Shown: piece by piece, positions 7,325 to 53,964 of the stretch | How the letters are laid out: every line of letters begins with the position of its first letter | How positions within the stretch are numbered: position 1 is the first letter of the stretch | The notes under the pieces: generated by a model | The model's database searches: none | What the model was told of the DNA's origin: nothing | Seen by the model: only the letters and a program-made list of their open reading frames with translations | Position numbers and translations under genes: made by a program | DNA from: a virus | DNA: 64,000 bases | Strand: one strand, 5' to 3' | IMG/VR virus record: IMGVR_UViG_3300033571_028151 | Coordinates: 1 to 64,000 of that record

Positions 7325-10300
7325 ATGACCGACTTCTTTTTTTCGAACAACAAGTGTGGCATTGGCGATCAAGTCGAGAAGGTCGACTTTGATTTTGTCG
7401 AGTCCTGTGAAATCCGGCCCACCCCGCCGCCGATATTCGATTGCCAATTACCTATCATTCCGCGTGAGCCAGAAGTTCCGTGCCCAGAATTTGTCACGTC
7501 GTCCAAAATAGCAGTTGCGTATAACAACGAAAGCAAAAGTTGCCCAATCAAACCGCCGTCTCGGGTTGACTTCAAAATTCTACGCACGGTAGACAAGTGC
7601 TCGACAGACAATACGTGCCGGTTCGACGCTGAAATAGATATCAACGTGCTTGTGCCGCCGCCGCCCTGCCCGGAGATGCGCGTTGGAGAACTGAAACTCA
7701 CAACAGGGTTTTCCGACCAACCCTGTATCGCTGACGGGCAAAATCGATTTCAAATTACGTCGTCAAAACGCGCCGGTATTGATTGTAACGACCCGGGGAC
7801 ATGCGAGTTCACATTCGATTTAGAACTCGTCGTGCCGATTCCGCGGCCGCCGTGCCCTAGGATCGAAATCAATACGTTCTCTGTCAATGCAAACTACAAC
7901 GACGAATGCCCTCCGCCACCGAGCCGCTTCGAGATTCGAAAAAACCACCGGCCGCCAAGCGAATGCGAAGATACGGGCGAGTGCAACTTTGACATCGACC
8001 TTGAAATTTATATTCCGATTCCTCGCCCGCCATGCCCTGAAATCAACATTGTTAAATTTGAAGTCAATAGTGCCTACGAAAATGCTTTTTTCGCTACATC
8101 CTGCAACAGACAAAATCGTTTTGTTGTCACGAGGAAATACACACAGCAGCCCTGTGATGACCCAAAGAAGCGCGATAAGTGCGACTTCGACATTGAGTTA
8201 GAAATCTTCATCCCGATCCCGCAGCCGCCTTGTCCGGAGTTAAATGTCAAGGTTTTTGACGTAAAAACTTACTACGAAGACAAAGAAGATAAGTGTGCAA
8301 ATACCGGCAATCGGTTTGAGATCACGAAGCGAAAAATACCGTCAACAGATTGCCGTACGCCCGATCGCTGCGAATTTGATTTTGAAATCGAAATCAACGT
8401 CCCAATACCGCGCCCGCCGTGCCCCAGCATCAACGTCGGCAAATTCGAAGTCAAAACACAATACGCTGACTGCGTCACGTCGAACAGCACGTTTGAAATC
8501 ATTCCGCGCGTGACCAAAGGCGAAGACTGCACGGAATCAGACCAGTGCGATTTTGATATCAATCTCGAAATTATTGTGCCGATCCCTCGGCCGCCATGTC
8601 CGGAAATCAACGTCACGAAGTTCGAGGTCAAAACGACGTATGACACAAAGAAGTGTCCGTCGAGCGGCGGCAGTACGTTTACGGTTACTCGCCGGCCGCC
8701 GCGGCCGAAAGACTGCAACTCTACAACTCCGGAAAATTGCACGTTTGATTTTGAGTTGACGATCGAGGTTCCTCTGCCGCCGCCTCCGCCTTGCCCGGAA
8801 CTCAACGTCAATTCGTTCAACGTCAACTACATTGAAAACATCACGCCAGAAAATGTTGACCAGTTATTTAATTGCAATAGGTTCACGATCACTACGCGCG
8901 AGACACCCGGCGATTGCGGCGAGACAAACGGCTGCGCGTTCGATATTGACTTGAACCTGTGCGTCCCAGTCCCGCCCTGTCCTAATTTCGAAATTACAAC
9001 GTTTGTCGTCAACTCTAAATATGCAGATTGCCTCGTCAGCACCGAAAACAAGTTCACGATCACAAAACGCAGCGAAGACGAGTGCAACTTTGACATTGAT
9101 TTAGAAATCAACGTCCCGATTCCGCGCCCTGCGTGCCCGGTATTCGGCACAAATCTTGATGTGCGGCCGTTCTTTTTTGGTGGTGGGTGCGTCCCGGGTT
9201 TTCCTTTGCCTGCGTGCGCAGCCGGCGGTGGCGGCGGTGGCGGCGCCGTCGGCGGCTTGTCGTCGTTCACAGTCGAGACGGTCACGATCGGCGGCTGCTG
9301 CGGGCAAGGTGACGCACAAGAAGTGTGCGGCTTCTTGTTCGACCTCAAAATCGCGATCCCAATTCCCAAGTTGGTTCAAGAGGTCAAGTTTGAGCCACAA
9401 AAAATAAAGTTCGATCTCCTCTGGTGCGACACGAAACTGGGTATTCAACCGGATACTTTGCGCCTCGATTTCAAGCCTCAACCTGACGCGTGGGCCAACT
9501 GCTGCGACCGCGGGGCGCAAGCGCTGTTCAAGCCAGAACTCGAAATTAAGTACAACATGAGCCGCTGGCCGTGCGAGTATGTCGACATCTGGCCACGCGA
9601 AATGAATTTCCCGCTGGAATGGGTTGATCGAAACGGCGTTGTTAGCCCCGCACCGCCGGACACATGGCTCAAACTCAAAATTGAGCCAAAGCCGCCGCTC
9701 GGGCCGTGTATGCCGTGCCGCTGGGAGATCATTCCCGAACTCCGCATTCCCAAACCGTGCGACTACAAATTTACGTACTCAACCGCGGACTCGGTCGTAA
9801 ATCCGTACATCTACACGTGCGCCCGTGAGTATGAGGCGGCTCCCGACGATTACTTCGAAATATACATCGAAGCGATCCCAGACAAGCCGTGCGAATTCAA
9901 AATATGGACATACAATAAGACAAAAGTTTACAAACCGTGCGATAAAATCCGCTTTGAAGTTGATTACTCGCGTTGCACGTTTGTCCCGTTTTACGCAAGA
10001 AGCATTGTACAAATACAAAACGAGTCTAAACTCGAATTCAATATCGAACAGGACCCGGACGATTGTTGCCTATTTAAAATTTGGTACTACTACAACTTCG
10101 GCGTGCTGCGGCCGATTTGCGGCGGCGATGTTTACGTCAACAACGGCGACCTCGGTACAGGTAAACTAAAATGTGAGGGTTCCGATAGCGAGGGGTATAC
10201 GTATCGCATCGATATCGATCTCAAGACCGCGACGTGCGACAGCGCCGGTAGCGGCGCAAGCGGTGGCAGCGGCGGTAGCGGCGGGAGCGGCGGTGGTGGC

Positions 10301-18248: not shown

Positions 18249-20895
18249 GGGTTTTCCTGCTTGTTTAATTCGCCGACACAACCATTTGCGCGCTTTAGCC
18301 GTTTTGGGGCTGTCGTTGGAAAAGCCGGTCTTCCCAGCAATTTTACAATGCCCGCATTGTCAGCAAAACACGCTTCACGTTTTCGATGATATTTTAACAG
18401 ACGGCCTGTGGTTGAACTGTACGGCCTGCTCAGCCCACGGGGATATCATAACGTTTGGGGCCAATATCTGGAATCTAAGTTTACCAAATACCCTCACAAA
18501 ATTCAGCGATTCCGGCATTATTACGGAAAACGACGCGAACAGGGTAATTGGCGATTATGACCGGGCTTTGGCTAAACAAAAAGCCGCTGAGAACTTCTGG
18601 TTCGACGCGGAATCTCAGGTCTGGAATCATGGCGATGACGTTATCGCCTGCCGGCTTAGAGAGTTTGGTGTCAGGAGTGAAATTGACGGATGTTACGGCC
18701 TTGTAGGGGTCGCGCACTATGACCAAATTGCAAAAGTTTGTGCGGAAATGGGAAGAGCGAAACCGCCTCGATTACGCGACGGTGGGGCCGCTCTTGTATT
18801 TCCTTTTTATGACCTGCCCGGAAGATTAACCGGGTTCTTGTTGTTGCAATACAACGACATCAACGAATCTAAGCAGGTGTTTATTGGGCTGTCCGGCTAC
18901 CGCCGGCAAAAACCCGAAGCCGGGTATTTTCTGCTCAAAGAAGTCATTGGCTCTGCGCCGGAAATGCTCAAAGGCACCCAGTTTGTGTCCGACGACCCGC
19001 TCTGGGTGCTGCAAACACAGTGCGATTATCTCGCGCGCCACATGCAGACCTTACCGCTGGCGGCCAGTTATAGCGGTCCAGAGGCCGAAAGTTACGGCGC
19101 AACATGGGCGGCATTACCAAACGGCGGCAGAATATTCCACGGCGCCGTAGCCACACCAGAACTCATCAGCCGCGCCTGCAACGCCAAGGGCTACGCCGCT
19201 GCGGTGCCGCCGTCCAACCGGGTCACAAAACCGTACGGTAAAGCCGTCGACCACGCAATCATGGGGCGGCTCAGCGCTATGCGCGTCAACGCCAAAACGT
19301 GGCAAAAAGCGTTAATTGACGCGACCATCGGTGTCAGCGAACTTAACGCGCAAGCGTTCATGCAGCGACTCACTGTGCCGCACGACAAACTTAGCCTGTT
19401 TCTTGAGCGGCACGCAGCACAGTTTTCAAAAGACTTTAAAGACCGCGTACTCGCCGCGGTCAAAATGTCGCTCGCTGCTCCGACCAGAACAGGTCGACGG
19501 CGAATCGTAATTGAGCGAGACACGGGGTGGTGGAATCAAATGGGGCAGCAAATATCAAATGCGCGGGTAACTATCGCCAAAGTGTTGCAAGCCGATACCG
19601 GCGACAAGATGTACTCCGGCAGCGTGTACATGGACAATCAAGAGTACACGTTTACAGACTCTGCCAAGCGAATTGAACGTATGGGTTTGTTGGCATATGC
19701 TGCGACAGTCATGGCGCCACACGGCAAGTTGGTCATTTTTGACCGCTCGTGGAACAGAAGCAGCCATATGATCGCGATGCAGTTGCGCCCGCCCAAACTC
19801 GTAAACGTGGCGACCAAGTCTGGGTGGGACGAAAATACGCACACGTTTCGCTTTGCCAAATACGAACTAACCCACGCCGGCGAAATACAGCCGGCACAAG
19901 GCTGGACGTCGCGCAAGACGGCCAAGGTGTTTCCAGAACCAGCGCCAATTGCACCGCTGCCGCTTCGCGACCTGTTGACGCCCGCCCATGAAAACTCGTT
20001 CGTGTGGGCGTTCACCGCCGCGGCGCTAGGCAACCTCGTCGCGCCGATTATGCGCAAAGACTATATCGCCACAGCAATTTCGTGCCAAAACTTCGACGTT
20101 GCCCAGCGCGTCGGCGAGGCCTTGGGTTGTGCCGGCGAACAAACGACAGTGCTCCAGCGCAAAAACTCGCATCACTTTTTAAATAGCATTACCGCAACCG
20201 CGACGTGGCCGGTTCTAGGCTACAGCGCGTTCAACGACGACGTGTTTAACCCGCACGTCCCGAAGTACTTTAATCGGCCGCTATTTTTACGGCTGCAACA
20301 ACCGCCGGCCACCAGCGGCCTCAGTTACGGCTGGCAGGCGATAAAAGCCGCGCCAACAAATCTGCAATACGACCTCGACCCGCTGCGGTACGTCTTGCCA
20401 GCGTACATTCAGCGCGCGTTAAAAAACCGGCTGAACATATTCAGCCGCGTAGACAACATCCACGCAACTGTGCTCAACGACTTACACGCGTGGATGAGCG
20501 AAACATACGGCGTAGCGTTCAATTTAGCGCACGCCCAAAGCCTCATGGCCTACGCCTCTTCTGCCCACACCGAACTCGCGCGCGAACTAAACAGAGCCAT
20601 TTCGGCCGAAAAACTAACGGTTTTACCGGTACCCAGAAATAGCCGGCAAACCAATGACTATATTTTACGCAAAAAAGACCATTGGTGGTTGAATCGACGG
20701 GCCATTGATCGTTATTTTTATACAGAGCGTAGCGTCGGCCCTAACTGGTTGGCGATAATAGATTTGCTGCAACAGGACGGCGTTTACGCGGGCGAAGAAG
20801 TCGTACACAATATGCAAGGCGTACTAGTTAACAAAGACTGGTGCGATCAATTTCTTATTCCGTCAGGAGAGTCGCTGGAAAAAGAGACTGGTTAA
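18247..20895 (+). CDS. Large protein with primase-type zinc finger
   Basis: An 882-residue protein. Residues 35-66 (C35-x2-C38 ... C58-x2-C61-x2-H64-G-D) closely match the CHC2-type zinc ribbon that primases use to read template DNA. The next 170 residues, including an LVFPFYD...RLTGFLL stretch, resemble the start of a DnaG/TOPRIM-type core. No Walker A motif is seen in the remaining 600 residues, where a primase-helicase would have one. It may be a diverged primase-helicase relative whose ATPase is lost. A GGAG ribosome site supports the ATG. A separate, complete TOPRIM primase lies at 59333. Confidence 0.65.
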   Translation: MGFPACLIRRHNHLRALAVLGLSLEKPVFPAILQCPHCQQNTLHVFDDILTDGLWLNCTACSAHGDIITFGANIWNLSLPNTLTKFSDSGIITENDANRVIGDYDRALAKQKAAENFWFDAESQVWNHGDDVIACRLREFGVRSEIDGCYGLVGVAHYDQIAKVCAEMGRAKPPRLRDGGAALVFPFYDLPGRLTGFLLLQYNDINESKQVFIGLSGYRRQKPEAGYFLLKEVIGSAPEMLKGTQFVSDDPLWVLQTQCDYLARHMQTLPLAASYSGPEAESYGATWAALPNGGRIFHGAVATPELISRACNAKGYAAAVPPSNRVTKPYGKAVDHAIMGRLSAMRVNAKTWQKALIDATIGVSELNAQAFMQRLTVPHDKLSLFLERHAAQFSKDFKDRVLAAVKMSLAAPTRTGRRRIVIERDTGWWNQMGQQISNARVTIAKVLQADTGDKMYSGSVYMDNQEYTFTDSAKRIERMGLLAYAATVMAPHGKLVIFDRSWNRSSHMIAMQLRPPKLVNVATKSGWDENTHTFRFAKYELTHAGEIQPAQGWTSRKTAKVFPEPAPIAPLPLRDLLTPAHENSFVWAFTAAALGNLVAPIMRKDYIATAISCQNFDVAQRVGEALGCAGEQTTVLQRKNSHHFLNSITATATWPVLGYSAFNDDVFNPHVPKYFNRPLFLRLQQPPATSGLSYGWQAIKAAPTNLQYDLDPLRYVLPAYIQRALKNRLNIFSRVDNIHATVLNDLHAWMSETYGVAFNLAHAQSLMAYASSAHTELARELNRAISAEKLTVLPVPRNSRQTNDYILRKKDHWWLNRRAIDRYFYTERSVGPNWLAIIDLLQQDGVYAGEEVVHNMQGVLVNKDWCDQFLIPSGESLEKETG

Positions 20896-31418: not shown

Positions 31419-31440
31419 GTTTTTCGCTAATCCTTGCGAT

Positions 31441-31456
31441 TTCACTACGAAGTGAA
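31441..31456 (+). terminator. Hairpin at end of AAA operon
   Basis: TTCACT-ACGA-AGTGAA forms a 6-bp stem 22 bases after the AAA stop, followed by A-rich repeats rather than T. It could stop transcripts arriving from the right strand or simply cap the message. Confidence 0.35.
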
Positions 31457-31483
31457 AAGCGAGTGAAAAGCGACCGAAAAGCA
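31451..31483 (+). repeat. Three 11-bp tandem repeats
   Basis: AGTGAAAAGCG occurs twice head-to-tail (31451-31461, 31462-31472) and a third diverged copy ACCGAAAAGCA follows. They lie directly upstream of the hairpin array and may be protein-binding iterons. Confidence 0.6.
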
Positions 31484-31489
31484 AACTTT

Positions 31490-31753
31490 GACTGCCACGT
31501 GACGGCAGTCAATTTTGACTCCGGCAAAACCGGGAGTCAGACTCCCCCAAACCCGGCAGTCAATTTTGACTCCGGCAAAACCGGGAGTCAGACTCCCCCA
31601 AACCCGGGAGTCGATTTTTGACTGCCACGTGACGGCAGTCAATTTTGACTGCCACGTGACGGCAGTCAATCTGGTCGGCCCAATGTCGAGTTTTGTTGCA
31701 AAAAAACATGACACAGCGCCGGCGCCCGTACTGACTGCCGCGTAACGGCAGTC
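31490..31753. repeat. Array of eight GACT...AGTC hairpins
   Basis: Eight inverted repeats of 21-22 bases lie at 31490-31510, 31517-31538, 31540-31561, 31568-31589, 31591-31612, 31620-31640, 31647-31667 and 31733-31753. All begin GACT and end AGTC. Three have GACTGCC-ACGTGAC-GGCAGTC, and the last is a variant of it. Two have GACTCCGG...CCGGGAGTC. Two have GACTCCC...GGCAGTC or GGGAGTC. Spacers are AATTTT-type (6-7 bases) or a single A, except 65 bases before the last. Positions 31511-31561 and 31562-31612 are near-identical 51-bp direct repeats. The region (31419-31771) has no credible gene. It may be tandem terminators, an operator array or a replication origin. Confidence 0.9.
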
Positions 31754-31771
31754 AAAATTCCGGAGACGACT

Positions 31772-32083
31772 ATGTCTGACATTGACAAGATGCTTGAAGA
31801 CGGATACGCGGTTATCCTCTACCCAAACCGCTTAGGCACCGCCACGATGGCGTTCATTGACGGCGAAGACTGGACAGCCGTTCAAGCGGTGATCGACGAC
31901 CTGCCAGATGAGCAAGTCCTAGACATTCGCCGCCCTGTTGCGCCAGAAAGCGTCAACGAGGGCGTAGCGCGCATTGGCCGCAAGATGCGCCGCGAGGGCG
32001 AATATGAAAACTGGGACGAGAAGATGAAATCGTTTGGTTTACCAAACGCGTCTGAACGACCCTCACAACACGTGAAAGATTAA
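31772..32083 (+). CDS. Hypothetical protein after hairpin array
   Basis: A 103-residue mixed alpha/beta acidic protein with a CCGGAG ribosome site; its start is 18 bp after the last hairpin of the array. No family recognised. It is the first gene that a promoter inside the array would serve. Confidence 0.7.
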   Translation: MSDIDKMLEDGYAVILYPNRLGTATMAFIDGEDWTAVQAVIDDLPDEQVLDIRRPVAPESVNEGVARIGRKMRREGEYENWDEKMKSFGLPNASERPSQHVKD

Positions 32084-32109: not shown

Positions 32110-32325
32110 ATGGCACTTCCAAAAACAATCTGCACATCGTGCGGCGAGATTATTGACGAAAGCGACGACCAGTGCCGGCCTGATCCGGCATGGAAAATTG
32201 ACGGACAGCCAAAGTGCAAAGACTGTTATTTGGAGTTGGCGTGTGGGCGCATAGTGGCCCCGCAACCGTCGCACAAACCTCCGCACGAAAATTTAACGCC
32301 ACGACAAAGGACGAAACTCAACTAA
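32110..32325 (+). CDS. Small zinc-ribbon protein
   Basis: A 71-residue protein with CTSC (residues 8-11) and CKDC (36-39), a classic two-knuckle zinc ribbon, and a basic Pro-rich tail. It probably binds nucleic acid or protein. The stop is 2 bp before the next start. Confidence 0.75.
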   Translation: MALPKTICTSCGEIIDESDDQCRPDPAWKIDGQPKCKDCYLELACGRIVAPQPSHKPPHENLTPRQRTKLN

Positions 32326-38134: not shown

Positions 38135-38508
38135 TGGCGCACCCTTATCACCACGCGCTCTCTTCTGTACAGAAATGGGGCGGCTGCGTCGAAGACTACC
38201 AGCCGATCCACGACTGGTTTGATGAATCCAAAGCCCATATGGCTGACTTCCGTCACCGCGCTCTGCGCCACCACAGCGAGGGCATTTTCATGGCGGAAAA
38301 GATATTTGGAACGACGATCACGAACTCTGACGGCCGCGTCGTTCCCGTGCGCTACATCGGCGAACAGCACGTAAAAGAAGACCTTGGGCTTATTCCCACG
38401 ATGGCCGACTGGTTTGAATGCATTAAGCCCGAGCATTCGTGGATGTTTGGCCGCGGCAAAAACCTAGAAAAAGAACTGGAGCAGCAAGACGCCGCAGTTG
38501 GCGTCTAG
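38134..38508 (+). CDS. DUF6915-like protein
   Basis: A 124-residue protein. The block AHPYHHALSSVQKWGGCVEDY, HDWFDESKAH, FRHRALRHHSEGIF and RYIGEQHVKEDLG matches a highly conserved family (DUF6915-type) found in phages and bacteria. Many His residues suggest metal binding. Activity unknown. Confidence 0.75.
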   Translation: MAHPYHHALSSVQKWGGCVEDYQPIHDWFDESKAHMADFRHRALRHHSEGIFMAEKIFGTTITNSDGRVVPVRYIGEQHVKEDLGLIPTMADWFECIKPEHSWMFGRGKNLEKELEQQDAAVGV

Positions 38509-44337: not shown

Positions 44338-45410
44338 TGTCCGTCGGACTCGATGTTTTCGACAGCGCCTATCAAAAGGCTGTGCGGTGGTCGTTGCCTA
44401 TTGTCGGCTATCGGTCCCGCAATCCGTGTCTTGCCGCCATCGCCGCCACGTACGATTTGCCTGACGGCGACCACAGCCTGCCAACGATGCGGGCGTGTGT
44501 TAACTTTCGCCGCGTGCAGTTTTTAACGCGTGCTTACGAACTGGCCAAGTACGATAAGTACTTTCTCGTTCGCGGCATTATTCCAAATCAACATTACTTT
44601 GACGCCCAGCGGGCTATTGGCGCGTTTGAACTGTGCGCCAGTTGTTGCCCAACGGTGATGATATATCCGCCGGCGTTGCAGAACGTCCGCAAGTTTAAAT
44701 CGTGCGGGCACTCGAACTTCTGCCCGTCGTGTTGGTGCGCAGTCGCCATGCGGCAGTACCAGCAGATGCGGCTGGTGATTAACGCGTTTCTTCGGCAAGG
44801 AGCCGCAGGACGCATTTACGTGACACCGTACATCACCGAGCAGTTTGTTCCGGCGCCGCGTATATCTTCGACAAACCACGCCAGTGCCGACGACGCGGCC
44901 GAAGCGCTGCTCATCATCCAGCGTGAAACGCAGAGATACAAACGGCTGATCCAACAACGTAGTCGGCAATTGCGTATACATCGCAACACAGTTGCTGCGT
45001 ACTGGCGGCTTGTGCCTATCCCGGTCGACGGCGGTTGGCGGCTCCAGTTTCGGCAACTGTTTGTTTCGCTGCCCGAGCAAAAGTCACCCGTTGAGCGCAT
45101 CAATTTCCGTGGCACAAAAATCTTGAAGCACAAACGGTTGTTGTTGTCTGGCGGTAAGAACTGGCAGGAGCGATGGCTGGACGAGACAGAAAATAAACTC
45201 GACACGTTAATGCTGTCGTTTTTGCGCTATCCGTCAGAACTGTTGACTGAAGACATTGACCTGACCGCGGCGGCATTGAACGCTACGGCCAAGCAGCGCA
45301 TGATTGGCGGCTACGGCAAGTTTAGAAGCGCGGGGAGCGGGTTGCTCAAGAAGATGCGGCAGCAAGATCAAGAGCGACAGGAAAACAATGGTCAACAAAA
45401 GCGGGCGTAA
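44337..45410 (+). CDS. Cys-rich zinc-finger protein, possible replication-type
   Basis: A 357-residue protein. A dense zinc region (C100, C103, C104, C123-G-H125, C129, C132, C134) resembles the zinc segment of some rolling-circle or plasmid Rep proteins. The remainder is Arg/Gln-rich. No catalytic Tyr motif could be confirmed. GTG 44334 is an alternative start. It overlaps the next gene by 23 bp. Confidence 0.6.
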   Translation: MSVGLDVFDSAYQKAVRWSLPIVGYRSRNPCLAAIAATYDLPDGDHSLPTMRACVNFRRVQFLTRAYELAKYDKYFLVRGIIPNQHYFDAQRAIGAFELCASCCPTVMIYPPALQNVRKFKSCGHSNFCPSCWCAVAMRQYQQMRLVINAFLRQGAAGRIYVTPYITEQFVPAPRISSTNHASADDAAEALLIIQRETQRYKRLIQQRSRQLRIHRNTVAAYWRLVPIPVDGGWRLQFRQLFVSLPEQKSPVERINFRGTKILKHKRLLLSGGKNWQERWLDETENKLDTLMLSFLRYPSELLTEDIDLTAAALNATAKQRMIGGYGKFRSAGSGLLKKMRQQDQERQENNGQQKRA

Positions 45411-46617
45411 AAACCGTGTGCGGCGCGATAAAGCCGCCATGGAAAAGTACGGGCAGAACAAGAGGCAGGTTTGGCACGAGTATCCTGCCGTCAAAGCCCG
45501 ACTTGCATATGCATGCAACGCGTTGTTCCACGGTGATTCACACGCGATGGCCGCAGCGGCTGGTGTCTGCTACCGCCACATGTACCGCGTGCTCTACGGC
45601 CATTCGCGGCTGTCGATCAACATGGCCGCGCAGATCGTGACCAAGATCGGTATCCGCGCGGAGTGGTTGCTGTGCGGCGTCGGCAACATTATGGAACTTC
45701 CTGCTGGCGAACCAGACCGGCTGTCATTGCCGCCGCAGATGCGCAGCAACCTCTGTTTGTTTGACGCTGTCACACACAATCCCGGCACTGAGTTTTTTCC
45801 GCCGGAGCGCGTATCGTTTACAGAACCCGCCATCCAAGATGTAAAACCCTACGAAGACGCTGCTAGGGTTGTGTATTTGGCGCATGCAAACAAAAAACCA
45901 GTTGGTTTTTTTTTAGGTAACGAATCAACCGGCGTCCCGCTGGCGCAAATACTGCTGCCGTTTTTTCAGGCGCAATACGTAGACTTTCTAATCGCTACGC
46001 TGACCGCGGCGTCGCACGACGTCTACGCTGCGCACCCGCAGCCGCCTATTGATATCAATTCCGTTGCTCGCTTTGCTGCCGAGCGCGGAATGGGCTACGG
46101 AGAGGCGATTGGCCTCGTTGGCTTTGCCGCTGACGCTGACAGGCAGAAGAGTCTGCTAGCCGGCGTACTTGATTTGGGGCTGCCAGCCCTTGTAGCCGCC
46201 GAGATTGGCGAGATCGGCCGGCACACCGCGCCTAACATTCGTGGCGCTGAGATTGGCGCCGCTGTTGGCGCCGCGGCATACGTAGACCTATTCGCCTACA
46301 CCGAACAACTTCGAAACTTTTTTGGCACTCCCGGCGGCGTGATGATCGTCGCCGGCGAGTGTCAGCGCGGAGTGCGACTGTTTTTGGAGCGCCTTGAAAC
46401 GCTTCGGATGGTCGAGCCGCACCAGACTGGATTCACATTCGTTCTGTTTTCAAAGCCGGACGACACCCTTCAAACAGAGATTCAAATCCGCGGCGGTCAC
46501 GTCATCTTTTTAGACCAACCAACAATAACGACGTTCAGTCAGTTATTTCAAACATGCAACGACGTGTACGCGGGCAAAATTACCAATGAGCGACAATCAC
46601 CTGACAGAACCGTTTAA
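45388..46617 (+). CDS. HTH protein with deoxyhypusine-synthase-like core
   Basis: A 409-residue protein with an AGGAAAAC ribosome site. Residues about 36-100 form a phage-repressor-like HTH (AAAAGVCYRHMYRVLYGHSRL...IGIRAEWLLCGVGNI). Residues about 160-330 loosely follow the deoxyhypusine synthase pattern: KKPVGFFLGNESTGVP, YVDFLIATLTAASHDVYAA with the HD pair H210-D211, then GGVMIVAGE. The catalytic lysine region of the enzyme is not visible. It may bind NAD or act as a regulator. Both parts are calls by eye. Confidence 0.55.
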   Translation: MVNKSGRKNRVRRDKAAMEKYGQNKRQVWHEYPAVKARLAYACNALFHGDSHAMAAAAGVCYRHMYRVLYGHSRLSINMAAQIVTKIGIRAEWLLCGVGNIMELPAGEPDRLSLPPQMRSNLCLFDAVTHNPGTEFFPPERVSFTEPAIQDVKPYEDAARVVYLAHANKKPVGFFLGNESTGVPLAQILLPFFQAQYVDFLIATLTAASHDVYAAHPQPPIDINSVARFAAERGMGYGEAIGLVGFAADADRQKSLLAGVLDLGLPALVAAEIGEIGRHTAPNIRGAEIGAAVGAAAYVDLFAYTEQLRNFFGTPGGVMIVAGECQRGVRLFLERLETLRMVEPHQTGFTFVLFSKPDDTLQTEIQIRGGHVIFLDQPTITTFSQLFQTCNDVYAGKITNERQSPDRTV

Positions 46618-50687: not shown

Positions 50688-51866
50688 GTGGAGCCGCTTT
50701 TTGTGTTTAGCGCCGACCTCCATCTGGAGGACGGGGCTTGGTCAACCAAGCCGGGCATTTACGGCGATGCCTATTACAGTTTTGCGCAGATTATTGACTA
50801 CTGCATTGCGCACCGGTTGCCGCTGATTCTTGGCGGCGACGTACTAGAGAAGAAACAAAACCTTGCCCGCCCTATCGCCAAGTTGTGCGAGGGGCTATCG
50901 CGCATGCAGGCGGCGCAACTGAACGTGTACTACATTCAGGGCAATCACGAATACGATCGCAACGCGCCGTGGCTGAGCATCCACCCGTGGCCGATTCACT
51001 TGCACAACATTAGCGCCGATTTTGGCGCTACCAGCATTAGCGTGCGGGGACTCGACTGGCTTCCTCGCGGCGAGATTCAGGCGGCGTTTCAAGCCGTACC
51101 CGAGGATACAGATATCTTGGTGACCCATCAGGTCTGGAAAGACTTCATGGGCGAGATCGGCCGCACGGAATGCGAACTGACCGATGTGCATCATGTGCAG
51201 ACCGTGCTTGCGGGCGACTTTCACGTGACCAAAGTGGCTGAAGGTGTCAACGCGCAGGGCAAGTCAATCAAGATGCTTTCGCCCGGCTCGACGGCTATGC
51301 AAGATATGGGCGAGCAGCCGGCGAAGTTTTTCTTTGTTATCTCCGCGCACAACGGCGAGATTATTTTTGAAGACAAGCCGCTGAAAACTCGCGGCACGTT
51401 GAGTTACGTCGTAAAAGACGTTGAGTTGCTTGACGAATTGTGCGCGGGCAGACTGGCGCGAGAGATTGAAAAGTTGATCTCAGACAGTAAGTCCGCCGGG
51501 CACCACCATGATATCCACAAGCCGCTTGTTCGAGTTAAGTTTGACAAACGGCTCCCTGATGCTTTTTTGCGCATCACAACCGTGGTGTCTGATTCGGCGC
51601 ACTTGTTTTGCGAGGCGCTGACCGACAAGATGGCTCCGCGGCAATCCCAAAACCGCGATTCGGTTAAGAACGATCTATTGTCCGCGTTGTCCGATTTAAT
51701 CGGCGACGATAACGAGTCATACAAATTGGCTTCTGCTCTTTTGACGGCGGACGACCCGGCAAAGGAATTGGAAGCGCAGTTTTCTAAGTTCATGAACGAG
51801 GAACCCAATGCAACTTCTGAAACTGGAAGTGAGGAACTGGGTTCACCATCGACAGCGGACGTGTGA
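50688..51866 (+). CDS. sbcD: SbcD / Mre11-like nuclease subunit
   Basis: A 392-residue protein with a GTG start and AGGAGG upstream. It has the calcineurin-like metal site: D10-L-H12, D51 in LGGDVLE, N86-H87-E in GNHE, H147 and D177-x-H179 in AGDFH. With SbcC it forms the recombination nuclease that processes DNA ends and hairpins (phage T4 gp47 equivalent). The last 59 bp overlap sbcC, a common arrangement for this pair. Confidence 0.9.
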   Translation: MEPLFVFSADLHLEDGAWSTKPGIYGDAYYSFAQIIDYCIAHRLPLILGGDVLEKKQNLARPIAKLCEGLSRMQAAQLNVYYIQGNHEYDRNAPWLSIHPWPIHLHNISADFGATSISVRGLDWLPRGEIQAAFQAVPEDTDILVTHQVWKDFMGEIGRTECELTDVHHVQTVLAGDFHVTKVAEGVNAQGKSIKMLSPGSTAMQDMGEQPAKFFFVISAHNGEIIFEDKPLKTRGTLSYVVKDVELLDELCAGRLAREIEKLISDSKSAGHHHDIHKPLVRVKFDKRLPDAFLRITTVVSDSAHLFCEALTDKMAPRQSQNRDSVKNDLLSALSDLIGDDNESYKLASALLTADDPAKELEAQFSKFMNEEPNATSETGSEELGSPSTADV

Positions 51867-53964
51867 ATTTACACGCGGCCTCGTTGCCATTCTTGGTGAA
51901 AACGGTTCTGGCAAAAGCAGTCTTTTCGGTGCCATCCGCTGGCTCCTTACGGGCGAGAATCCCAACTTCGGCGTGAAGGCTGACAACATCAGCCAGTACG
52001 CCAAGGAAGGTGAGCCGTCCTACGCGACCCTTGAGTTCGAGCACAACGGCCACATTGCCGTCGTGACGCGATACCTGCTGCCGGAGAAAGAGCAGTCTAT
52101 TTTGACTGTTGACGGCAAGGAAGTTGCGCGCGGGGATAAGGCGGTAACGGCTGGGGTCGAAAAACTGCTGGGTGTGGACGCCAAGTTCATCAGCCGGTTT
52201 ATCATCGTCTCCCAGACCGAAATATTCTCATTTATTGACGACAACCAGACGGACACGGACAAGTTTTTTCAGCGGCTGTTCAATACGTCAAAAGCCGACA
52301 AGTGCCAAGACGTAATTGGCAAAGGGCTGCTGAAACTCAACGTGCCTGAAATCGTAAAGTCCAGTTCGCAAATACTTCTGGAACAAGCGGAGATCACCAA
52401 ACAAATCGACGACCTGACGGACCAGATCAAAAAACTGCCGTCACTCGATGCCTTTCTACAGGTACAGGAGCGTGATCAGAAACTTATCCAGCAATGGGAA
52501 GCCCGAGAAAAAGCAGGCGCAGAACTGCAACGGCTAACCCAGCAAGCAACTGAGTACGAGCGTGAAATTGAAGAGTCGGAAGAAACCTGTCGACAGTACG
52601 AAAAAGACCTAGACGCATTCTCGGCGGCTATCAACGGTAAAGAAGCCAATCATCGTGAAGCCAAGATTGCGCTAGGTCATTGGGAAAACTACAAGAACAT
52701 TGCAAAGGTTAAGACCAAGATTCAATCGCAGCGCGACGAGATTGCTGAAGAGCGCGCTAGGAATCCAGAACCGCCAACCCCAAGTGGCCAGTCGGCTGCC
52801 GATTGGCAGCGGAATGTGGAGGCAGTGCAACGTCAAATCAAAGACGCCGAACGGTTCGTTGCCATGTTTACTGAGGCCGGCGTGGTCGAGTGTCCCACTT
52901 GCCACACCCCCTCATCCCAATTAGCGTCGCAGGTTAGTGAGCAACAGGCGCAAATTCCTAAATTGCGTGAACAGTTATCTGAACTTCAAACTGCGGTGGC
53001 AAACGCCGCCGCGGCAGAAAAACTCCGCAGCCAGTGGGAAACGTTAAACGAGAAATTGACTGCCCGCGAACGCCATCTCGACGACTCCGAGCGCGACCTG
53101 ACAATTGTCAAGCCGCCGGAATCTACCGAAGAGGAACTTCAGCAGGCGGTCTCTGACTACGAGGATTTTGAAGCGGCCCAGAATGAGTTGGCGCCGCTGA
53201 TGCAAAAGACTCGCGAGCACATCGCCAAACTGAACGGCGCGGTAACCGCTGTTCGTGAGCGCATGGAAAAGTTGGCTGAAGATATCAAAGCCATCACGAC
53301 AACCGAAGCCGACGCCCACTTGGCGACGGCGCGGCTGACCGAACTGCGGACGCAGTGCTCAAACAGGCAGGTTCTCGAACGGCAAAAGATTGAATTGACC
53401 GCAGACCACCGGCGGCTACAGGAGCAATACGAAGCGGCAGTTAAGCAAGAAAGTGACGCTGTTAAACTGCGTAAGTGGTCGACTTTGGCTGAGCAAGCCC
53501 GGGAGGCCTTGAAAAATGCGCCCCGGATTGTTGCCCAGCGAAATTTGCAGCGGCTGGAAACGGCTATTAATGAATTGTTGCAGATATTCAGTGTAAACTT
53601 TCAGGTAAGAGTGGCCGGAGATGGTGCCCCAAACTTTATCGCCGAGTTTTACGATGGTCGACGACAACCCGCGCAACGATTGTCCATTGGACAAAAGACA
53701 GTCTTGGCACTTGCGTTTCGAGTCGCCGTCAACGCGATGTTTGCAGAAGAGATCGGTCTACTCGCTTTGGATGAGCCGACTGCGTCGTTGGATCAACCGC
53801 GCATCCAAGCGTTAGCGCCCGTGCTCGAAAAGTTAAGAGACCTCTCGACAGCAAAAGGGTTACAATGTCTACTTGTAACCCACGCTTCAAGCCTGTCGCA
53901 TTTGTTTGAATCAACTATCGAGTTGGAACCGCCGGAGTTGCGCAATGTTCGTACCGCAGGATGA
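51808..53964 (+). CDS. sbcC: SbcC / Rad50-like ATPase subunit
   Basis: A 718-residue SMC-like protein: Walker A GENGSGKSS (residues 30-38), long coiled-coil arms (about 170-350 and 375-600), the zinc-hook CPTC (C362-C365) at the apex, the signature LSIGQKT near residue 625 and Walker B LLALDEPTASLD near 650. It dimerises through the hook and drives SbcD (T4 gp46 equivalent). Useful for recombination-dependent replication. Shorter than bacterial SbcC, as in other phages. Confidence 0.92.
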   Translation: MQLLKLEVRNWVHHRQRTCEFTRGLVAILGENGSGKSSLFGAIRWLLTGENPNFGVKADNISQYAKEGEPSYATLEFEHNGHIAVVTRYLLPEKEQSILTVDGKEVARGDKAVTAGVEKLLGVDAKFISRFIIVSQTEIFSFIDDNQTDTDKFFQRLFNTSKADKCQDVIGKGLLKLNVPEIVKSSSQILLEQAEITKQIDDLTDQIKKLPSLDAFLQVQERDQKLIQQWEAREKAGAELQRLTQQATEYEREIEESEETCRQYEKDLDAFSAAINGKEANHREAKIALGHWENYKNIAKVKTKIQSQRDEIAEERARNPEPPTPSGQSAADWQRNVEAVQRQIKDAERFVAMFTEAGVVECPTCHTPSSQLASQVSEQQAQIPKLREQLSELQTAVANAAAAEKLRSQWETLNEKLTARERHLDDSERDLTIVKPPESTEEELQQAVSDYEDFEAAQNELAPLMQKTREHIAKLNGAVTAVRERMEKLAEDIKAITTTEADAHLATARLTELRTQCSNRQVLERQKIELTADHRRLQEQYEAAVKQESDAVKLRKWSTLAEQAREALKNAPRIVAQRNLQRLETAINELLQIFSVNFQVRVAGDGAPNFIAEFYDGRRQPAQRLSIGQKTVLALAFRVAVNAMFAEEIGLLALDEPTASLDQPRIQALAPVLEKLRDLSTAKGLQCLLVTHASSLSHLFESTIELEPPELRNVRTAG

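Follow-up and report, generated by a model that had tools for sequence, protein, structure and literature searches.

In a ~200-kb phage, the 353-nt gap (31419–31771) that separates an AAA ATPase gene from a gene for 103 aa holds eight elements of 21–22 bp with GACT/AGTC ends (31490–31753), an array which has grown by tandem duplication and which we tentatively read, at slightly less than even confidence, as clustered palindromes that a trans-acting factor would recognise at a junction of gene exchange. The window analysed comprises 64,000 nucleotides, positions 1 to 64,000 of IMG/VR record IMGVR_UViG_3300033571_028151 (86,707 bp), and this record matches a section of a 198,312-bp contig (G001) at 100% identity; the contig ends carry a 123-bp terminal repeat, from which the genome is probably complete. 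The array consists of four copies of type A (GACTGCC-N7-GGCAGTC), two of type B, one of type C, and one chimera, C′ (Table 1). The original prediction of eight inverted repeats with constant GACT/AGTC ends is upheld in its count, however C′ is not a true palindrome, with only GACT/AGTC and two further pairs matching. The type-A pattern GACTGCCN{5,9}GGCAGTC was observed 4 times against 0.00 expected in shuffles, with the gap as a whole folding at −163 kcal/mol (z = −11.6), and the members are spaced 23 and 27–28 bp apart, without helical phasing.

Table 1. Features in and around the palindrome array, in window coordinates.
Feature	Position	Strand	Evidence or remark
AAA ATPase gene, upstream of array; core gene kept across the phage family	29925..31418	+	Pfam AAA, E 1.5e-27; 64 IMG/VR relatives
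Small hairpin TTTCACT-ACGA-AGTGAAA, just after AAA stop	31440..31457	+	Conserved in relatives
Three 11-bp repeats AGTGAAAAGCG	31451..31482	+	TRF; leader also precedes hairpins in L010, L054
A1 palindrome GACTGCC-ACGTGAC-GGCAGTC	31490..31510	.	
Two tandem 51-bp copies	31503..31604	.	100% identical; TRF
B1 palindrome GACTCCGGCAAAACCGGGAGTC	31517..31538	.	
C′ chimera, imperfect palindrome: 5′ half of C + 3′ half of A	31540..31561	.	
B2 palindrome, identical to B1	31568..31589	.	From the 51-bp duplication
C palindrome GACTCCCCCAAACCCGGGAGTC	31591..31612	.	Followed by GATTTTT
A2 palindrome, identical to A1	31620..31640	.	
A3 palindrome, identical to A1	31647..31667	.	Followed by AATCT, as with the single L054 copy
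A4 palindrome GACTGCC-GCGTAAC-GGCAGTC	31733..31753	.	18 bp before next start codon
Variable small gene downstream of array, 103 aa, without family	31772..32083	+	Present, absent or relocated in relatives
Variable small gene, 71 aa; resembles a four-cysteine zinc ribbon by eye	32110..32325	+	

The palindromes are restricted to one phage family and vary in number within it. A search of IMG/VR with the AAA protein yielded 64 loci, with GACT palindromes downstream of the gene only in the window virus (8), L010 (3) and L054 (1), the latter two being close relatives that carry their copies in the same kind of gap; most relatives have no palindromes at this locus. Away from it, G025, a distant relative with about 70–77% DNA identity to this phage over most shared genes, carries four GACTGC...GCAGTC elements (18517–18607, found by a looser search) at a non-orthologous locus, in a gap of 671 nt that is the longest called in that genome, and in G020 two TGACTGCC...GGCAGTCA copies, at a distance of 53 bp, lie within a coding gene. 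The first G020 copy aligns to homologues without an indel and the second is unclear; a third G020 match, at 38233, falls within a stretch of conserved protein that shows no insertion, and chance probably accounts for it. The expectation that relatives would conserve the GACT arms is thus borne out in L010, L054, G025, and G020. Across 37 related records, all 11 matches to TGACTGCN{8,12}GCAGTCA have exactly N9, a fixed class of 23 bp where 22–26 bp were allowed, with the reversed-pattern control giving 0 matches. Fixed spacing and conserved half-sites would be expected of an operator cluster for a dimeric DNA-binding protein, but N10 spacers, together with changes in the arms or flanks, are seen in the B and C members and in the copies of G025.

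By pattern scans that need exact matches and may miss divergent arrays, complete tandem GACTGC pairs are found in three of the 2.9 million viral contigs of IMG/VR, all of this phage family, with the other 12 matches being single chance half-pairs; a pattern that was too loose gave chance matches in the viral contigs. The type-A core has 0 matches in 84,980 prokaryote genomes, the gap sequence has no match among phage or plasmid records, and a hairpin covariance model found no further copies in 1.22 Mb, where G020 was included only by its AAA locus. The first two of these results led us to reject a host-derived repeat, and an assembly artefact is ruled out by the related but different palindromes in other phages of the family. 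Five phages with palindromes are known, and the conservation of the arms therefore rests on few independent lineages.

The history of the array is legible in its 51-bp direct repeat, which is present as predicted (31503–31553 and 31554–31604, 100% identical). A1 and C have CGG[C/G]AGTC in common in their 3′ arms, where the junctions of this duplication sit, and removal of one repeat leaves a clean A-B-C-A-A series, made up only of true palindromes, together with the separate A4. The simplest reading of C′ is therefore as a scar left by slippage duplication, before which the array had six members. Growth of the same kind is seen in G025, where two cores are duplicated as a 46-bp unit. These two duplications, the first with its chimeric member, the copy numbers of 0, 1, 3, and 8 in close relatives, and the tandem growth that the neighbouring 11-bp repeat has undergone in L014 would suit a neutral or selfish palindrome that expands by slippage and template switching, spreads between phages by recombination, and has no function, with hairpin-templated correction keeping the arms perfect. 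We consider this explanation unlikely, as the elements occupy one locus per genome without dispersal, no REP-type transposase was found, the first G020 copy is not an insertion relative to homologues, and the arms stay intact whilst the leader and cores diverge. At 9491–9620 of L014, a run of tandem GTGAAGAGCG repeats stands where the window has its palindrome array, and the gap therefore expands differently in different phages.

The array lies at a gene-exchange junction: in relatives, the number of small genes that separate the AAA gene from the following core gene ranges from 0 to 2, and these genes are of several kinds. The gap was originally predicted to be the only long intergenic one, which is overstated: it stands out in its surroundings, but over the full genome a simple and rather crude script for calling genes and gaps returned longer gaps of 869, 807, and 789 nt. 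Homologues of the AAA ATPase with 49–79% identity lie nearly all in Planctomycetota MAGs (genome contigs L240–L274), and with its nearest cellular homologues placed there, the phage probably infects a planctomycete. The match to the AAA gene ends at residue 319 in L054, L044, L045, L047, L048, and L056, with the L054 gene split at this residue by an insertion (about 8952–9800) that encodes an HNH-like product by eye and is probably a homing intron; the window copy of the gene is intact. As the phage genome encodes an SbcC-like protein (window 51808–53964), a relative of a subunit of a palindrome-cleaving nuclease, a stable cluster of palindromes is somewhat unexpected.

Between the AAA stop codon and the array lies a second, quite different inverted repeat. 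This small hairpin is found 16–56 nt past the AAA stop in most relatives (homologous positions in L008–L054), with an invariant CT-RYGN-AG cap and a stem in which both partners have changed in five of seven pairs; pairing holds in 92.5% of cells and the covariation score was reached by none of 500 shuffles, and as the rows were picked by the cap motif, the fair test is that of the outer five pairs only, which do covary. The small hairpin is a candidate new structured RNA of the phage family. A second copy is present in L046, and in L052 and L054 the hairpin stands after the next gene. The palindromes of the window virus, L010, and L054 share a leader of the TTCACTACGNAGTGAA hairpin and GTGAARAGCG repeats.

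The GACT elements show the reverse pattern, with five of seven arm pairs never varying and the cores differing, the constancy of the outermost bases being partly an effect of finding the elements via their arms. A single arm pair changes on both sides, from G–C to C–G in B and C. Since fixed arms around variable cores are the opposite of a covarying stem beneath a fixed cap, the comparison suggests that the arm sequence, and not pairing alone, is maintained, or that the elements have spread recently. The recurrence of the arms at non-orthologous loci in the window, G025, and G020 speaks for recognition of these palindromes by a factor. On the other side stand the spacings without helical phasing, the N10 members, and the many relatives that have no palindromes at this locus; hairpins, in RNA or as cruciforms, would also explain the symmetric G-to-C change in B and C and the U–G pairs in L010, and the sharing of palindromes across the family could reflect recent spread by recombination in place of selection on the arms.

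The array is not a set of ordinary terminators. Eight of the phage's own noncoding terminators, from the genome strand that is + in the window, have long GC stems of 7–15 bp and T6–T8 tails, with at least 6 T in eight positions, and an ordinary terminator in the form of a GC stem followed by about six or more T is not found among the array members. Spacers resembling U tracts follow four of the eight members on the + strand, with at most 4–5 T, and none of note is present on the − strand, such that the predicted resemblance to terminators on either strand applies in part to the + strand and not to the − strand. Nor are the hairpins scattered at most gene ends, as ordinary terminators would be, with no other copy in the 198 kb of G001. 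A promoter reading of TTGACT...CAAAAT on the − strand was rejected, its counts being at chance level.

A looser role in the transcript is possible, if on balance somewhat unlikely: the array could be transcribed as stacked hairpins that, in a partial and additive way, stop transcripts coming out of the AAA operon, shield the operon's 3′ end, and keep the accessory gene beyond them insulated. The flanking genes all run in one direction, seven of the eight members fold stably (−9.7 to −13.3 kcal/mol), AATTTT or GATTTTT follows four members on the + strand only, three members are called terminator-like on that strand by prediction, and the members come after another RNA-like hairpin. Such a barrier is harder to reconcile with the different build of the phage's own terminators, the absence of the T tracts from L010 and L054, hairpins on the complementary strand that are equally or more stable, and the position of the G020 copies within a coding gene. 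Of the possibilities raised at the outset, a protein-binding array and a regulatory barrier are both kept as readings.

Clustered inverted repeats are typical of replication origins, and the array, as such a cluster, was also proposed to be one; an origin or a packaging signal is nonetheless very improbable, with no minimum of cumulative GC skew at 31.5 kb, the element missing at this locus from most relatives, and a different locus in G025. Equally doubtful, despite the short tandem stem-loops in a phage that it would explain, is an RNA that acts as a decoy for a CRISPR or guide-RNA system of the host, whether an RNA anti-CRISPR or TIGR-like, as the best Rfam CRISPR match scores 19.9 bits against a threshold of 37 (E 0.13) and lies outside the palindromes, no Nop-domain protein or non-palindromic spacers were found, and the type-A core is absent from the prokaryote genomes searched. 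TIGR stem-loop arrays do occur in viruses (PMC12045711) and, like the array, are tandem stem-loops, however the array has palindromic cores and neither box C/D, spacers, nor a Nop-domain Tas protein, and identity with TIGR was rejected. RNA anti-CRISPRs mimic CRISPR repeats (PMC10651486), and identity with either was likewise rejected, as no Rfam CRISPR family reaches its gathering score.

Among the closest known parallels are the PeSL cassettes (promoter early stem-loops) of T4-type phages, which combine a terminator stem-loop with an early promoter, in many copies per genome (Arbiol 2010, Comeau 2014; cited in PMC4503421, PMC3950731). Both are stem-loops in intergenic phage gaps where small genes are shuffled, here with 0–2 variable small genes at the junction. 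The array differs in being confined to one locus, in its weak U tracts, and in lacking a recognised promoter, with neither AGATATC nor a strong sigma-70-like site on the + strand of the gap. A PeSL-like module (stem-loop and TTTTAGATATCA) is present elsewhere in this phage. In G001, TTAGATATCA has 11 copies against 0.09 expected, usually ahead of a gene and directly behind a GC hairpin or a T tract (window coordinates 13980, 78892, 109491–113325, 169996, and others; G001, L200–L209), and on these features looks like a terminator–promoter module of the PeSL type.

REP and REPIN elements are short intergenic palindromes with conserved ends, associated with a RAYT transposase (PMC3116915), and resemble the array in these ends and in clustering in intergenic DNA, however the array is not dispersed over the genome. 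Identity with REP/RAYT was rejected, with no Y1 transposase in nine family records and no dispersed copies. The repetitive hairpin-forming elements of mitochondria are compositionally divergent and dispersed (PMC2800124); they are also intergenic hairpin repeats with a patchy distribution in related genomes, in contrast to which the array has shared arms and one locus per genome. By the tests made, the array falls outside PeSL, REP, TIGR, and CRISPR-type elements. Operator clusters of phage repressors consist of repeated, dyad-symmetric sites of 20–25 bp near a gene start. The array has this form as well, but its core is partly variable, and one pair of candidate sites lies in a coding region.

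Under the favoured reading as a recognition cluster, the recognition unit would be TGACTGCC-N7-GGCAGTCA, with GACTCC variants, specific to one ~200-kb phage family. A sequence-specific factor, probably a dimer that the phage encodes, would dock on the tandem palindromes, either as inverted repeats in DNA or as extruded or transcribed stem-loops, and once bound would control expression across the junction, between two core genes, at which small accessory genes are exchanged. We infer the binding of a protein, its phage origin, and its regulatory effect; the repeats, their restriction to the family, the conserved arms around variable cores, the fixed 23-bp length of the TGACTGC class, the growth by tandem duplication, and the position at a gene-exchange junction are observed. 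A profile search for a cognate protein, shared by G001 and G025 and absent from five array-less genomes, gave one weak, membrane-protein-like candidate, with G020, which has two copies, wrongly placed among the five, so that this comparison carries little weight. A conserved phage protein without a Pfam match (window 45304–46617; 3319–4518 of L311 in G020) has an N-terminus (..EWLLxGxGPM..) that by eye looks like a DNA-binding domain of the CI/Xre type, and the two GACTGCC palindromes of G020 sit inside its gene there. A more specific proposal, in which a dedicated factor reads the clustered TGACTGCC-N7-GGCAGTCA palindromes or stem-loops and slippage-varied copy number forms a tunable switch at junctions of planctomycete jumbo phages, seems to us fairly unlikely.

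Palindromes of another kind are found in G025 (L210–L220), where AWAGATATCTWT is present at 42 sites, compared with ~1.5 expected for its core AGATATCT, spread in and between genes and with one copy a few bases from the GACT array. Taken together, the GACT elements appear to form a family of arrays, of binding sites or of hairpins, that has not been described before and differs from ordinary gene-end signals. In the literature we searched, there is little on jumbo phages of Planctomycetota and nothing on how they are regulated. A family-specific palindrome at several loci, in one to eight copies and with a clear duplication history, offers a defined target for a cognate factor, and the same one-to-eight series provides a natural series for relating copy number to the tuning of expression. 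More broadly, the array suggests that the hairpin arrays which phages carry between their genes can be recognition clusters of one lineage and need not be terminators.
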